Source: Chloroflexota bacterium (GTDB taxonomy: Bacteria; Chloroflexota; Anaerolineae; Anaerolineales; DRMV01). From it: 64,000 bases of DNA. The position numbers and the translations under genes are program-made. Below the pieces are notes generated by a model. It was not told the DNA's origin and did no database searches. It saw only the letters and a list, made by a program, of their open reading frames with translations. Of this stretch, positions 1,835 through 7,290 are shown one piece after another. Position 1 is the first letter of the stretch; each line of letters starts with the position of its first letter. The stretch is from NCBI GenBank assembly GCA_011322445.1, contig DRMV01000041.1, forward strand, positions 1 through 64,000, read 5' to 3'.

Positions 1835-2806
1835 TTAGCGTTGGATGGTGTAGGTGTCGATCACTTTCCCATTGATGGTCACAAACTGAAAGGTCAGGTG
1901 CTGCGCGTCGGCCTCGACTTTGAGCGCCCCGTAGTTGGCGTTGTAGCGGAGTACACTACCAGGGATCGGCGTCTTGTTGGGAAAGGGATAGCGGCTGACG
2001 CCCCCCAGGCCGTTCACAATGTAGACGATGCCGTCGCGCATAATGCGTTCATAATCGTGGTCATGGCCGGTAAGCACCGCGGTTGCGCCCCACTGGGCGA
2101 AAGGCCAACGCATGCGCTTGGTGCTGCCGTGGCGGCCAGAAGAGTAAGGGGGATGGTGAAAGACAACGATTTTCCATGGTTCGGTAGCCGCGGCCAGTTG
2201 TTCCTGCAGCCATTGGGCTTGTTTGCCGTCGGGTACTGCGCCGTCGGGCTCGTGGTAGTCGCTGTCGAGGACGAAAATGTGCACCGGCCCGCGTGCGAAC
2301 TGATAGTACCGCCCGTTGCCAAGGGGGCGCAGGTAGCGAAGATAAGCATCAATTTTACCGGTGCCCCAATCGTGGTTACCCAGGGCGGGGAAAAAGTGCC
2401 CGGCGGCGATGTCTTCCCCATAGTATTGGAGGACGTTCCGCTGCATCGTGTTGGCGCCGCCGACGGGGTAGTCGTTGTCGCCCAGGGAAAGGATGAAGTC
2501 GGGGTGCCAGGAATGTACCAGGGCAGCCACGGCGGCCTCGGCCTGGCCGCTTTCGCCGAAGTCGCCGATGACGGCAAAGTGCACCTCAGGAGGCGAAAAG
2601 AGGGGTGCCGCGGCGCCAGGGGCTGGGGTGGGCGAAGGCGGCAGCGGGGTGGCAGAAGCAGGGGCAAAAGGCGTGGCGGTATCTGTAGGGGCGAGGACGG
2701 TGGTTTGGAAAACGACCGTGGGGGTGGGGGAAGGGGCCGCGGCACAGGCGCCGAGCGCACCGGCCGCGATGAGGGCGAGCAACCAGATCAAGCGACGAAG
2801 GCGCAT
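1835..2806 (-). CDS. Lipoprotein metallophosphoesterase
   Basis: 323 aa. The N-terminus has a basic start, a hydrophobic stretch and a lipobox (LGAC, Cys21), followed by a short Thr/Pro linker, so it is probably a lipid-anchored exported protein. The calcineurin-like phosphoesterase motifs occur in order: GDFGE, GDNDY, GNHDW, HHPPYSSG and GHDHDYER, which bind a dinuclear metal centre. The pattern is closest to purple-acid-phosphatase-like enzymes, and the substrate is unknown. It is the last gene of the minus-strand operon that begins with ssb, 31 nt after the NAD kinase gene. The ATG has a GGAGAG ribosome site. Confidence 0.85.
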   Translation of the reverse strand: MRLRRLIWLLALIAAGALGACAAAPSPTPTVVFQTTVLAPTDTATPFAPASATPLPPSPTPAPGAAAPLFSPPEVHFAVIGDFGESGQAEAAVAALVHSWHPDFILSLGDNDYPVGGANTMQRNVLQYYGEDIAAGHFFPALGNHDWGTGKIDAYLRYLRPLGNGRYYQFARGPVHIFVLDSDYHEPDGAVPDGKQAQWLQEQLAAATEPWKIVVFHHPPYSSGRHGSTKRMRWPFAQWGATAVLTGHDHDYERIMRDGIVYIVNGLGGVSRYPFPNKTPIPGSVLRYNANYGALKVEADAQHLTFQFVTINGKVIDTYTIQR

Positions 2807-2837
2807 GAGAGACTCTCCTGGTGCCTGGCAGGTGGTT

Positions 2838-3731
2838 TTATCGATCTTCCGGGCGAGGGGTATCTTTGCCCACCGTGGGGTTCCAGTTCATGTAAGAAGT
2901 CAGGTTGCGGTAGAAGTAGCCGCGCCCGCGAAAGCGCACGAATTTGAGGGGATAGCGATTGGCGCGCACGTGAATGCGGTCGCCGTCTTCCAGGGCTACG
3001 GGGTCGTGGCCGTCAACGCTCACCACAGCCTCATGGGTCACGCCAACTTCCAGCGTGACCGTGCTGCCTTCGGAAAGCACCACTGCCCGGTCTACCGAAA
3101 GGTGCGGCGCGACCGGCATCAGCAAAATGTTCCGCAGTTCGGGTGGCAAAATAGGCCCCCCCGCGGCTAAAGCATAGGCCGTCGAGCCGGTGGGAGTGGC
3201 TGCAATCAACCCATCGGCGACGTAGCGCGCCAGCAACAGGTCGTCGACAAACGCGGTCACTTTGATGGGCCGCACGTACTGCCCCCGGCTGACCACCACT
3301 TCGTTGACCACATCCCAGCGGTGCACCAACGTTTCCCCGCGGTAGAGATGGGCTTCCAGCATCATCCGTTCTTCCAGCCAGGCTTCACCAAGCAGCAACT
3401 GCCGCAGCGTGTTCGGCCATTCGCTGCGTTCCACTTCGATGAGGAAGCCGAAGTGCCCCATGTTGATGCCGAGGACCGGCACGCCGTGAGGGGCGCACAG
3501 GTGGCCGGCGCGCAGCATGGTGCCGTCGCCGCCCAGGGCTATCAGCAAATCGGCCTGACCTTCTTCCACGCGCTGGCGCAGTTCGTCTTCGTAAAGCAGG
3601 CCGGCATAGGCTTCCACCCCGTGGCGTTTCAGGAAAGCCGCGACTTTGTGCCCTTCGGCCAGGGCTTCGGGCACCTGAGGGTGGGCTGCGATCACAATGT
3701 GCTGAAAGGGTGAGGCATTCGAGGGCGTCAT
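2838..3731 (-). CDS. nadK: NAD kinase
   Basis: 297 aa, cytoplasmic. Phosphorylates NAD to NADP with ATP or polyphosphate. The diagnostic GGDGT is at residues 67-71. NEVVVSRG and the substrate loop DGLIAATPTGSTAYALAAGG follow, then the C-terminal beta-sandwich (VSVDG). Length is typical of the family. The ATG is preceded by GAGGAGAT. It lies 18 nt after the Cas4-like nuclease piece in the ssb operon; the link is probably transcriptional rather than functional. Confidence 0.93.
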   Translation of the reverse strand: MTPSNASPFQHIVIAAHPQVPEALAEGHKVAAFLKRHGVEAYAGLLYEDELRQRVEEGQADLLIALGGDGTMLRAGHLCAPHGVPVLGINMGHFGFLIEVERSEWPNTLRQLLLGEAWLEERMMLEAHLYRGETLVHRWDVVNEVVVSRGQYVRPIKVTAFVDDLLLARYVADGLIAATPTGSTAYALAAGGPILPPELRNILLMPVAPHLSVDRAVVLSEGSTVTLEVGVTHEAVVSVDGHDPVALEDGDRIHVRANRYPLKFVRFRGRGYFYRNLTSYMNWNPTVGKDTPRPEDR

Positions 3732-3749
3732 GGGTATCTCCTCGCAGCG

Positions 3750-4271
3750 TCAGGTCAGGCGCTGGTCGCAAATTTCTCGGAAGCCGCAAGCGCGGCAGCG
3801 GGCGGCAGAAGTGTGGGAGCGCTCGGGCAATCCCCCCCGGCGCTCGGCCCGCCGGATTTCGGCCAGAAGATCGAGCAGGCGCTCTTCGGCTTCGAAGGTA
3901 AAGTCGATGCGGAATTCGCGGTCATCGTACCGCAGCAGGCCGTAGGCCGGGCGGATGCCCATTTGCCGCTCGACCAGCAGGCAATAAGCCAGTACCTGGA
4001 AGACGTGGCTATCGTAAGGCACAGGCGGCGCCGCAGCCGATTTGACCTCGACCGGGATCAGCCGTTTTCCCTGACGAATGAGATAGTCGGGACGGCCAGT
4101 GAGGCCCAGGGCGCGGTCGTAAAGGGGCTTTTCCAGTTCCTGGCGAATGCCCGTATCGCTGTAAACCACCGTGCCTGCAGGAAGCCCCAACTGTTTGCGG
4201 CGGCGGGCGCTGAGCCATACCAGGAGCAGCCCCACCACCCCCAGCAGAACGGCCACCAGGAGCACGAGCAC
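3750..4271 (-). CDS. Cas4/RecB-like nuclease, membrane-anchored, C-terminal piece
   Basis: 173 aa from a GTG start. An N-terminal transmembrane helix (about residues 2-20) leads into a PD-(D/E)XK nuclease core: GRPDYLIRQG, then VEVKSA (the D...ExK site) and QVLAYCLLVE (the usual Q-rich helix). The C-terminal RCRACGFREICDQ holds three Cys, as in the iron-sulfur cluster of Cas4/AddB-type nucleases. The fourth Cys and the Cas4 N-terminus lie in the preceding gene (4275-4517), which is in the same reading frame and separated only by one TGA. GGAGG sits 7 nt before the GTG, so coupled re-initiation to give two subunits is plausible. No other cas gene is present. Confidence 0.75.
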   Translation of the reverse strand: MLVLLVAVLLGVVGLLLVWLSARRRKQLGLPAGTVVYSDTGIRQELEKPLYDRALGLTGRPDYLIRQGKRLIPVEVKSAAAPPVPYDSHVFQVLAYCLLVERQMGIRPAYGLLRYDDREFRIDFTFEAEERLLDLLAEIRRAERRGGLPERSHTSAARCRACGFREICDQRLT

Positions 4272-4274
4272 GGC

Positions 4275-4517
4275 TCAGCCTCCGCTCAATTGCCATGCCC
4301 ACCACGCGGCCACGGCCACGAGAGCCAGCAGCACGAGTGCCCAGCCTGCCAGGCGCAGCACAGTAACAAAAACCACCGCTTCGCCGTGGCGGTGGTGGTA
4401 TTCAGTCCCGGCCTGCATGGCCGGGGCGTTGGCCGAGGGGTGCCCTTGCCGGGCATAGCCCCACGCGCGGGCGCAATAGAGGTAAGTGCCAATTTCGGAA
4501 ACGCGAAGAGTGCGCAT
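4275..4517 (-). CDS. Cas4-like nuclease, N-terminal piece with membrane helix
   Basis: 80 aa. The start (RVSEIGTYLYCARAWGYAR, then GTEYHHRHG) matches the N-terminal Cas4/Dna2-type region, with one Cys that would complete the iron-sulfur cluster. One transmembrane helix follows (about residues 48-77). The reading frame stops at TGA (4275-4277) and continues in the same frame as the 173-aa nuclease piece, which also starts with a membrane helix. Together they would be a roughly 255-aa protein with a helical hairpin in the membrane. Either two translationally coupled subunits, a nonsense mutation, or a base error explains it. It starts 3 nt after the translin gene ends. Confidence 0.65.
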   Translation of the reverse strand: MRTLRVSEIGTYLYCARAWGYARQGHPSANAPAMQAGTEYHHRHGEAVVFVTVLRLAGWALVLLALVAVAAWWAWQLSGG

Positions 4518-4520
4518 AGG

Positions 4521-5156
4521 TCAGTCGGGAGAGAGGCGGTCTTCCAGACGGCGCAAGGAACGTTCCAGCGCATCTTGCCGCAGGCTGAGGGTGACGTCGC
4601 CGCGAGTGCGTTCCAGCAGGCTGCGGGCGATGTCGGTCAGGCGTCGCAGGCCGTAGGTTACCGCGTCGGGGTAATCCATCGTGACCAGCACGGCGTAGAT
4701 GTCGTCCATCAGGCCGAGCAGGCGCTCGGTTTCGGGGGAATAGCCGTGGCGCAGCAAGTCGAGGACGCGGCGGCGCAGTTCGCCCACGGCTTCGGCCAGG
4801 CCGCGGACGTAAGCCGAGGCCGGAATGCCCAGGTCCTCGGGCGTAGGCAGGTCGCCGCCGTTGACCAGCGCGTGCACGATGCTGGCCTCGGCAAACTCTT
4901 TGAGGGCGTCCTGGGTATAGCCTGCAAAGTAGAGGTCGGGGAAGGCCGCCAGGTCGCGACGCAGGGTATCGGCCAGGGTGCGGGCGGCTTCCAGCCGCTC
5001 GGCGGCCTGGGTGTGGTCGTCGCGATGCACGGCGCGGATGGCATGGGCGCAAGCGCGCACCAGTTGCCGTGCCTGGCTCAGGGCGCGGTCTCGGGCGTGA
5101 GTCCGTGCTTCCAGGTCGTGATGCACGGCGTCGGCGATGGCTTCCAGGGCTGGCAC
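4521..5156 (-). CDS. Translin-family protein
   Basis: 211 aa, nearly all helical. The C-terminal two-thirds carry the translin/TRAX pattern: FPDLYFAGYTQDALKEFAEA, PTPEDLGIPASAYVRGLAEA, and MDDIYAVLVTMDYPDA followed by DIARSLLERTRGDVTL. Eukaryotic translin and TRAX bind single-stranded RNA/DNA and form the C3PO ribonuclease, and archaeal homologues are octameric rings. The acidic KEFAEA residues (about 85-91) align with the TRAX catalytic region, so RNase activity is possible but not shown. GTG start with GAGGAG upstream. It sits between DUF3467 and the Cas4-like gene with gaps of 6 and 3 nt. Confidence 0.82.
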   Translation of the reverse strand: MPALEAIADAVHHDLEARTHARDRALSQARQLVRACAHAIRAVHRDDHTQAAERLEAARTLADTLRRDLAAFPDLYFAGYTQDALKEFAEASIVHALVNGGDLPTPEDLGIPASAYVRGLAEAVGELRRRVLDLLRHGYSPETERLLGLMDDIYAVLVTMDYPDAVTYGLRRLTDIARSLLERTRGDVTLSLRQDALERSLRRLEDRLSPD

Positions 5157-5162
5157 GGATGG

Positions 5163-5474
5163 TTACTCCTCTGATGGTGGGGTGGTGGGAGGGCGAAAGA
5201 GCATGTCGGCGAGGCTGGGCGAGCCGGGGATGGGGATTTCCCCGTACGCGGCCTCGTAACGAGAGATGCTTTGTTCAAGCGCCCGGGCGAGCAGTTTCGC
5301 GCTGAGGGGAGTGAGCAGCACCCGCGCTTGCACTACCGCTTCGGCGTCGCCGGGAAGGTAGCGCGCCAGATCAATCAGGAACTCTGTCCGGCTGTGGGCG
5401 ATACGCGCCATGTTGGTGTAAATCAGCGGCACCTGGGCAGGGAGCCGCACCCGAGGCGGCTTGTTTTCGCTCAT
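5163..5474 (-). CDS. DUF3467 family protein
   Basis: 103 aa, soluble. It matches the small DUF3467 family: PLIYTNMARIAHSRTEFLID, then ARVLLTPLSAKLLARALEQS and a Pro-rich tail. Function is unknown in the family. It starts 12 nt after ssb and ends 6 nt before the translin gene, so it is co-transcribed with single-strand nucleic acid proteins. Confidence 0.75.
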   Translation of the reverse strand: MSENKPPRVRLPAQVPLIYTNMARIAHSRTEFLIDLARYLPGDAEAVVQARVLLTPLSAKLLARALEQSISRYEAAYGEIPIPGSPSLADMLFRPPTTPPSEE

Positions 5475-5486
5475 GGCGTGTTTCGT

Positions 5487-5918
5487 TTAGAAGGGAATTT
5501 CGTCTTCTTCGGCGGGGAGGTCGTCCACAGGGGCGGCGTCGCCCATGGCGCGTGCAGCGTTTTCGGTCTCTTCGCGGCTGCTGAGGAAGCGCACCGTGAG
5601 GGCGTGCACCTCGAAAGATGCCGCTGCCGTGCCATCCTGCCGGGTCCAGATGCGGGGGCCACCGGTGGTGGGGTCGGCGATCAACCGCCCTTCGACCAGC
5701 ACCCGCGAGCCTTTCCGCAGGTATTGATTCGTGGTTTCCGCTTGTTTGCCCCAGGCCGAGACCCGGAACCAGATGGTTTCCTTGACCTGTTCGCCGTTGG
5801 CGTTGGTGTAGGTGCGGTTCGTGGCGACCGAGAAGTTCGTAACTGGTGTGCCGCTGGTGGTGTAACGCATTTCAGGATCGCGGCCCAGATTACCGACGAT
5901 GATGATACGGTGGAACAT
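5487..5918 (-). CDS. ssb: Single-stranded DNA-binding protein
   Basis: 143 aa. An OB fold (RIIIVGNLGRDPEMRYTTSG, WFRVSAWGKQAE, YLRKGSRVLVEGRL) is followed by a short acidic tail ending in EDEIPF, the partner-recruiting tip. It coats single-stranded DNA in replication, repair and recombination. The tail linker is shorter than in E. coli. First gene of the seven-cistron minus-strand operon, with a GGAGGATATC ribosome site and its own extended -10 box at 5954-5962, inside the end of rarA. Confidence 0.95.
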   Translation of the reverse strand: MFHRIIIVGNLGRDPEMRYTTSGTPVTNFSVATNRTYTNANGEQVKETIWFRVSAWGKQAETTNQYLRKGSRVLVEGRLIADPTTGGPRIWTRQDGTAAASFEVHALTVRFLSSREETENAARAMGDAAPVDDLPAEEDEIPF

Positions 5919-5953
5919 GATATCCTCCTTTCAAAGGAAAAGCGGTCAGAAAA

Positions 5954-5962
5954 ATTGTACCA
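5954..5962 (-). promoter_or_regulatory. Extended -10 promoter of the ssb operon
   Basis: Minus-strand TGGTACAAT, about 36 nt before the ssb start codon. No clear -35 box; the TG dinucleotide may compensate. It overlaps the end of rarA, so ssb can be read from here or by read-through. Confidence 0.55.
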
Positions 5963-5970
5963 CGTGGGGG

Positions 5971-7290
5971 CTATTTCTTTCGCCAGTGGGCCAGCCGGGC
6001 GGCGACCTCGCGCTCGTAGCCCTGGTCGGAAGGCTGGTAGAAGCGCACCCCCTGGAGTGCATCGGGGAGGTATTGCTGGCGCACGAAGTGGCCGGGTGCA
6101 TTGTGCGGGTAGCGGTAGCCTTTACCGTGCCCGGTGGCTTTGCCATCGCGGCTGGGGTCTTTCAGGTGGCTGGGGACGTCGTCAGGGTTGGCGTTCTGGC
6201 GCACGGCGTCGCGGGCGGCGAAGTAGGCTTTCGTGCTGTTGGATTTGGGTGCGGTGGCGAGGTAAAGGGTGGCTTCTGCGAGGTGGTACACGCCTTCGGG
6301 AAGCCCCACCCATTCGAAGGCCTGGGCGGCGGCGTTGACCACCACCAGCGCCTGCGGGTCGGCCAGGCCGATGTCTTCCGCTGCGAGGATGAGCAGCCGC
6401 CGCAGGATGAAGCGCGGGTCTTCTCCGGCTTCCACCATTTTGGCGAGCCAGTAGAGCGCGGCGTCGGGGTCAGAGCCGCGCACCGACTTGATGAAGGCGG
6501 AAATCGTGTCGTAGTGGGCGTCGCCGTTCTTGTCGTAGAGCACGGCGCGCTGCTGGATGGCTTCCTGAATGGCCTGCAAGGTGATGGTGCGGCTGCCGTC
6601 GGGTGCGGGCGGGGTGGTTTCCACCGCCAGTTCCAGCGCGTTGAGGGCGCTGCGAGCGTCGCCGCGGGCGGCCTGGGTGAGGAAATCCAGCGCCTCGGGC
6701 GCGAGCACCACGTGGCGGTTGCCGTAGCCGCGTTCGGGGTCGGTGAGGGCGGCTTCCACGATGCGGCGGATGTGCTGGGGCTCTAATGGCCGCAACTGGA
6801 AGACGCGCGAGCGGGAAACCAGCGCCGAGATGACTTCAAAGTAGGGGTTTTCGGTGGTCGCGCCGATGAGGGTGATGGTGCCGTTTTCTACATGGGGCAG
6901 CAGGGCGTCTTGCTGGGCCTTGTTCCAGCGGTGAACCTCGTCGATGAAGAGGATGGTGCGCTGGCGGTGGTATTTGCGGCGTTCCTGCGCGTCGGCGATG
7001 ATCTTGCGCAGGTCGGCTTTGCCGGCCAGCACCGCCGAGAGGGTGACGAAGTGCGCGCGGGTGTGGCGGGCAATCAGGCGGGCGAGGGTGGTCTTGCCGC
7101 ACCCCGGCGGTCCCCACAGGATGATGGAAGAGAACAGCCGGTCGCTTTCGATGGCGCGGCGGAGCATTTTGCCTGGGCCGAGGATGTGCTCCTGCCCGAC
7201 GAACTCGTCGAGGGTGCGGGGGCGCATCCGCTCGGCGAGGGGCTGGCTGGCGGTATCGTGGGCGAGGGCGTGGTCGAAGAGGTCGGTCAT
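5971..7290 (-). CDS. rarA: Replication-associated recombination protein A (AAA+ ATPase)
   Basis: 439 aa. RarA/MgsA/WRNIP1 family, clamp-loader-like AAA+ ATPase that works at stalled forks and interacts with SSB. Walker A GPPGCGKT is at 60-67, Walker B LFIDEVHRWNKAQQDALL near 112, then sensor and lid regions. The C-terminal tetramerisation domain begins near DPDAALYWLAKM and includes VGLPEGVYHLAEA. It lies just upstream of ssb on the same strand, which fits the known SSB connection. Only 6 nt separate its -10 box from the ATG, so translation may be leaderless. Confidence 0.94.
   Translation of the reverse strand: MTDLFDHALAHDTASQPLAERMRPRTLDEFVGQEHILGPGKMLRRAIESDRLFSSIILWGPPGCGKTTLARLIARHTRAHFVTLSAVLAGKADLRKIIADAQERRKYHRQRTILFIDEVHRWNKAQQDALLPHVENGTITLIGATTENPYFEVISALVSRSRVFQLRPLEPQHIRRIVEAALTDPERGYGNRHVVLAPEALDFLTQAARGDARSALNALELAVETTPPAPDGSRTITLQAIQEAIQQRAVLYDKNGDAHYDTISAFIKSVRGSDPDAALYWLAKMVEAGEDPRFILRRLLILAAEDIGLADPQALVVVNAAAQAFEWVGLPEGVYHLAEATLYLATAPKSNSTKAYFAARDAVRQNANPDDVPSHLKDPSRDGKATGHGKGYRYPHNAPGHFVRQQYLPDALQGVRFYQPSDQGYEREVAARLAHWRKK

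Follow-up and report, generated by a model that had tools for sequence, protein, structure and literature searches.

Is a Cas4-type nuclease gene that is interrupted by an in-frame stop codon a broken gene, or do its two parts encode separate proteins that work together? The question is raised by a locus of a Chloroflexota bacterium (GTDB lineage Bacteria; Chloroflexota; Anaerolineae; Anaerolineales; DRMV01) on contig DRMV01000041.1 of the GenBank assembly GCA_011322445.1; the first 64,000 nucleotides of this contig, read on the forward strand, are the stretch of DNA analyzed here and are referred to as the window. An earlier reading, made from the letters of the window alone (hereafter the sequence-only reading), had described positions 3750-4517 as a single nuclease with two membrane helices. 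The in-frame TGA at 4277-4275 instead separates two genes, cas4N and cas4C, with one membrane helix encoded in each. Because the homologues of these genes share the split, the break is, judging from their sequences, a conserved division of the gene and not an error. We suggest, with a probability of roughly 0.72, that the two products form a heterodimeric, integral-membrane iron-sulfur (Fe-S) nuclease that faces the cytoplasm and acquires its cluster and active site only on pairing. The split gene comprises:

4275-4517, minus strand: cas4N, 80 amino acids, N-terminal half of the Cas4-type nuclease, with a C-terminal transmembrane helix
4275-4277, minus strand: in-frame TGA stop between cas4N and cas4C, read through for structure prediction only
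3750-4271, minus strand: cas4C, 173 amino acids, C-terminal half, with an N-terminal transmembrane helix and then the PD-(D/E)XK core

In the window, the two genes share a reading frame and are set apart by one TGA; the letters around this TGA are GCGGAGGCTGAGCCGTG, and a ribosome-binding site (GGAGG) stands seven bases ahead of the GTG start at 4271. The placement among the Cas4/RecB nucleases that the sequence-only reading had proposed is borne out by profile searches. On its own, cas4C exceeds the Cas4 cut-offs of both PF01930 (41.9 vs. 22.7 bits) and TIGR00372 (69 vs. 65 bits), and its profile finds the solved Cas4 proteins 8d3l, 7mi4, and 4r5q. One and the same PADLOC Cas4 profile matches cas4N with its positions 2-45 and cas4C with its positions 51-167. 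A single polypeptide is a usual but not a defining trait of Cas4; in all the Chloroflexota loci examined there are two genes.

The generality of this arrangement emerges from a survey of 400 sampled Chloroflexota genomes, in which 70 cas4C loci were studied (the lineage names given to these genomes are our own reading). At 60 of the 70, cas4N lies upstream of cas4C on the same strand, usually with a gap of 0 to 250 bases and at some loci with a whole gene of another family in between; in two relatives with the neighborhood seen in the window, cas4N and cas4C occupy different reading frames. At the remaining 10 loci, cas4N is located elsewhere in the same genome, and such unlinked pairs show that linkage is not needed for both halves to be retained. 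Their co-occurrence is obligatory: cas4N was found in every sampled genome with a strong cas4C match (86/86), shared descent among the genomes inflating any p-value for this association. A strong cas4N without a cas4C match was encountered only in G062, a genome that is 82% complete and in which cas4N lies 1.5 kb from the contig end. Only one of the Chloroflexota open reading frames (ORFs) examined matches both halves, and it encodes the ordinary soluble Cas4 from the type I-C CRISPR locus in the genome of the window. An automatic classification of locus L093 as "fused" was rejected, as its ORFs show the split.

At several loci (L063, L066, L067, L070, and L072), a HEAT-like gene (a weak Adaptin_N match) of ~210 codons lies between cas4N and cas4C. 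In L053-L073, a conserved stretch that translates as ENLCYT stops a few bases before the start of cas4N; it may represent the -10 box of a promoter lying near the start codon.

The characteristic residues of Cas4 are distributed over the two halves. The cas4N protein carries the Fe-S residue Cys15, followed by Gly37 and His41 of RecB motif I and then by its membrane helix; S7, C15, R17, G37, and H41 are invariant in an alignment of 22 such proteins. Among 27 aligned cas4C proteins, there is no variation at G59, P73, K77, Q92, G111, C159, C162, and C168, and next to none at D62 and E75. Across the pair the RecB-type motif set (H, GxxD, ExK, Q) is complete, with H41 contributed by cas4N and D62, E75, K77, and Q92 by cas4C. 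The four Fe-S cysteines of Cas4 are likewise all present and invariant, one of them on cas4N and three on cas4C.

The distribution of charge follows the positive-inside rule, with a mean number of lysines and arginines of 3.1 before the helix and 0.4 after it in cas4N, and of 0.3 before and 3.5 after in cas4C, counts that have to be read with the shortness of the outer tails in mind. By this distribution, the nuclease parts of both halves are predicted to be inside the cell. A structure was predicted by AlphaFold2 from the readthrough chain, with the TGA rendered as W and an alignment of 46 homologous halves together with single-chain relatives. The model of the joined cas4N-cas4C has a Cas4 fold, with a predicted local distance difference test (pLDDT) of 94.3 and a predicted template modeling score (pTM) of 0.89. 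In it, the first membrane helix is a direct continuation of the motif-I helix (residues 31-75), and the second membrane helix (81-110) leads back to the nuclease core. Compared with the Cas4 domain of 7mi4, the model gives a Z of 19.4 and a root mean square deviation of 2.8 A over 179 residues, both halves being covered. The pair belongs to the Cas4 fold by sequence and by predicted structure alike.

In the mechanism that we envisage, the cas4N protein would have its N-terminus inside the cell and a C-terminal anchor, the cas4C protein would be anchored by its N-terminal helix, with the nuclease part inside, and these two single-pass membrane proteins would pair into one Cas4/RecB-type nuclease. 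The Fe-S cluster would be built from Cys15 of cas4N and Cys159, Cys162, and Cys168 of cas4C, and the metal site from His41 of cas4N and Asp62, Glu75, and Lys77 of cas4C. With cluster and metal site shared across the chains, neither half is expected to be active alone, and pairing would position a nuclease that processes DNA at the membrane, on its cytoplasmic side. We infer the physical pairing, the assembly of the cluster, and the nuclease activity of cas4N and cas4C. Since relatives of Cas4 and RecB cut DNA ends and single strands, the role of the pair, by analogy, would be the trimming or degradation of DNA ends or single strands, or a form of surveillance, at the membrane, and in this operon it would be played alongside SSB and a TRAX-like protein. 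The membrane-located nucleic-acid module, so far unreported, that the sequence-only reading had proposed fits the evidence, apart from its single nuclease gene, and its translin/ssb context proves to be one of several.

Four observations weigh against the paired nuclease. The cas4N protein is not recognized by Pfam; the AlphaFold2 model was obtained from the readthrough chain, whose one-residue link itself favors contact between the halves; neighboring genes vary by lineage, so that no single pathway stands out; and single motif residues are altered in some divergent copies, for example VTLK for VEVK in L116. This last point, and the fact that the core adjoins the membrane, would also suit a pair that has lost its nuclease function and serves as a membrane-bound DNA- or RNA-binding protein or a redox-sensing Fe-S protein. 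Such a loss seems unlikely to us, given that most lineages show little or no variation in the His, Asp, Glu, Lys, and Gln residues and in all four cysteines.

The gene neighbors of the putative paired nuclease in the window are found in a run of minus-strand genes extending from 7290 to 1835, in the order rarA, ssb, DUF3467, the translin-like tsn, the Cas4-like sequence, NAD kinase, and a phosphoesterase:

5971-7290, minus strand: rarA (MgsA family AAA+ ATPase), first in the run, from family profiles
5487-5918, minus strand: ssb, single-stranded DNA-binding protein (Pfam, E 4e-32)
5163-5474, minus strand: DUF3467 protein (PF11950, E 5e-17)
4521-5156, minus strand: tsn, TRAX/translin relative retaining E87, E90, E122, and E126, from its match to AfTRAX
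2838-3731, minus strand: NAD kinase, from a family profile
1835-2806, minus strand: calcineurin-like phosphoesterase (purple acid phosphatase type), 3' end of the run, from a family profile

Along the run from rarA to the phosphoesterase, the gaps (that between cas4N and cas4C included) are 52, 12, 6, 3, 3, 18, and 31 bases, and the identities of SSB, DUF3467, NAD kinase, RarA, and the phosphoesterase are supported by family profiles. A terminator-like hairpin at 7371-7350 stands between the glycyl-tRNA synthetase gene upstream and the rarA run; none was found on the same strand inside the run, and Rfam and tRNA scans of the whole window returned no matches. Coordinates and family profiles thus confirm the closely spaced operon of ssb, DUF3467, translin-like, and Cas4-like genes behind rarA that the sequence-only reading had described, and of its seven cistrons at 1835-5962 the minus-strand run stands, with 3750-4517 as one gene being the part to be given up.

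The tsn protein scores below the Pfam PF01997 cut-off (17.1 vs. 25.9 bits), and we therefore name it only as a TRAX relative; it is also just under the nearest NCBIfam cut-off (263 vs. 291 bits). Its match to the solved Archaeoglobus protein AfTRAX (3zc1) covers residues 15-189 (175 residues), which is near full length, with an E of 4.6e-19. The translin assignment made from the letters alone is consequently upheld by similarity to TRAX (E 5e-19 in round figures) and not by the Pfam threshold. Of 400 Chloroflexota genomes, 220 contain this family. Residues E87, E90, and E126 are invariant across 54 tsn sequences, that of AfTRAX included, and position 122 is E or D; E122 aligns with the sole residue that differs between the AfTRAX entries in the aligned stretch, which is Asp in 3zc1 and Ala in 3zc0.

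Within the taxonomic order of the window genome, the series ssb-DUF3467-tsn is conserved, with DUF3467 between the other two. The tsn gene stands directly before cas4N in ten genomes from six families; the neighborhood is therefore not unique to this genome. Among Chloroflexota genomes with a split cas4, tsn is present in 112 of 120, compared with 220 of 401 overall, a co-occurrence that lineage effects inflate. These associations could be taken to indicate an RNA-processing unit, in which the TRAX-like protein, as an RNase, and the membrane nuclease would share one RNA substrate. We regard this as quite improbable: the pairing of translin with a Cas4-like gene, to which the sequence-only reading had drawn attention, recurs but is not universal, tsn and cas4 being unlinked in most lineages; the archaeal relatives lie beside other genes; and DNA is the known substrate of Cas4/RecB enzymes.

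An involvement in CRISPR adaptation has also to be considered. The absence of cas1/cas2 and CRISPR noted from the letters holds for the operon, which contains no cas genes, but farther along the same contig, outside the window, there is a type I-C CRISPR-Cas locus (L170; G000 contig 41, 100000-110000). It contains cas5c, cas8c, cas7, an ordinary single-ORF Cas4, and then ORFs resembling translated CRISPR repeats. The split pair might in principle be an accessory serving this system; however, a canonical Cas4c (302 bits) is already present at that locus, and in the clustered loci no recurrent cas family was found beside the split cas4, the contexts being those of housekeeping genes. CRISPR-associated Cas4 is encoded with cas1/cas2, a trait that the split pair does not share, and an accessory function of this kind is very improbable.

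The single in-frame TGA of the window, and the existence of single-chain proteins in archaea, might suggest that programmed stop readthrough or frameshifting fuses the halves into one protein, an idea made exceedingly doubtful by the different frames, the intervening genes, and the unlinked copies seen elsewhere. That a normal single membrane Cas4 was broken by a nonsense mutation or a sequencing error, as halves in one frame and one TGA apart might imply, is ruled out by the homologues, some 60 other Chloroflexota loci being split, mostly in other frames and separated by as many as 250 bases or by an entire gene, and the halves being at distant loci ten times; moreover, cas4C has its own ribosome-binding site.

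The split form, for which we favor assembly into a membrane nuclease, was also detected by a genome scan in Planctomycetota, Acidobacteriota, Gemmatimonadota, Clostridia, Methanothrix, and some Thermoplasmatota. It is rare in the first two phyla, with 2 strong cases in 149 and 1 in 119 genomes, respectively. Other Thermoplasmatota have a single-chain form in which 2, 4, or 8 membrane helices are inserted exactly between the two halves, and a member of the family was found in 96 of 145 sampled Thermoplasmatota genomes. For one archaeal single-chain protein, structure prediction likewise gave a Cas4 fold, here with four helices inserted (pLDDT 74; Z 19.1 to 7mi5). The archaeal single-chain proteins of L184, L194, and L290 have eight predicted helices, perhaps via duplication of a four-helix insert. 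In a short tree of 137 columns, in which L271 and L197 were labeled as fused by hand and with some uncertainty, the membrane-type and soluble Cas4 are separated with a Shimodaira-Hasegawa-like approximate likelihood ratio (SH-aLRT) of 96, and the split and single-chain forms cluster; the split form may have arisen from the single-chain form or the reverse. A copy labeled as alphaproteobacterial clusters with those of the Planctomycetota and may be misbinned.

Both halves occur on plasmids of Planctomycetota, where the N half is annotated as a "hypothetical protein"; one of these plasmids is conjugative and has a relaxase gene close by. Because of these copies, it is clear that split Cas4 can be mobile, although a search of plasmids with the cas4N sequence of the window gave no match. 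Viral contigs yielded no relatives of either half, and phages none of cas4C. On a plasmid of Planctomyces sp. SH-PL62 (L173, 3150-3860), a decayed C half with a frame break lies next to an IS701 transposase.

The neighborhoods are diverse. In about 20 other Chloroflexota loci nadK follows cas4C, and in another family of the window's taxonomic order nadK and the gene for a B-box membrane protein come after cas4C, some of these loci having the HEAT-like gene between cas4N and cas4C. A second group has rseP directly before cas4N, and a third has an HD-domain gene there instead. In L104 (1047-2225) and in 13 more Chloroflexota loci, the rseP gene (M50 protease) either overlaps cas4N or lies immediately before it. 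In Thermoplasmatota, a gene for a TPD-motif nuclease is often directly upstream; we noted such a gene (PF14811) before the single-chain membrane Cas4 at about ten loci, for example L227 (3579-4364). Surroundings that vary so much and are mostly chromosomal favor a general function over a single defense island, and the breadth of the distribution argues against a narrow one.

Cas4-type Fe-S nucleases have been treated as soluble, single-chain enzymes, and a conserved natural split in which two membrane proteins share the cluster and the catalytic site would represent a new form of nuclease control, by assembly at the membrane. It is tempting, if still rather speculative, to imagine a widespread class of membrane-assembled nucleases that cut only where their halves meet, for example at the entry sites of foreign or incoming DNA, with SSB and TRAX-like RNase partners in some lineages. 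Many genomes contain small "hypothetical proteins" to which a split Cas4 would assign an identity that can be tested, and the pair offers a ready route to the function of non-CRISPR Cas4, a question that dates from the description of solo-Cas4.

Solo-Cas4 has been reported in many Chloroflexi, and all Cas4 members are said to have four conserved cysteines (Hudaiberdiev et al. 2017, PMC5704561); the words "split" and "transmembrane" are absent from the main text of that paper. No earlier description of a split Cas4 was found in the open-access literature, subscription journals and preprints lying outside the scope of the search, and the design is apparently unreported so far. The split pair has in common with solo-Cas4 the PD-(D/E)XK core, the four Fe-S cysteines, and the fold, but it spreads the cysteines and catalytic residues over two membrane-anchored proteins. 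For tsn, the known counterpart is AfTRAX (3zc1), with which it shares its alignment and acidic residues; AfTRAX is archaeal, whereas the tsn of the window is bacterial and lies in an ssb operon, a different context from the operons with SepRS in which archaeal TRAX genes have been noted (PMC5424206). In both sequence and predicted fold, the closest solved structures to the split pair are those of CRISPR Cas4 (8d3l, type I-C, and the Cas4/Cas1 fusion 7mi4), which, in contrast, have no membrane helices, are single chains or fused to Cas1, and work with Cas1-Cas2. Structure comparison places the RecB-like nucleases Exo5, Dna2, AddB/AdnA, and ACE1 in the same fold class; these are single-chain or helicase-fused and lack the membrane insertion of the split pair. 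The single-chain membrane Cas4 of Thermoplasmatota shares both the family and the insertion point with the split pair, but does so in one polypeptide with 2, 4, or 8 helices.

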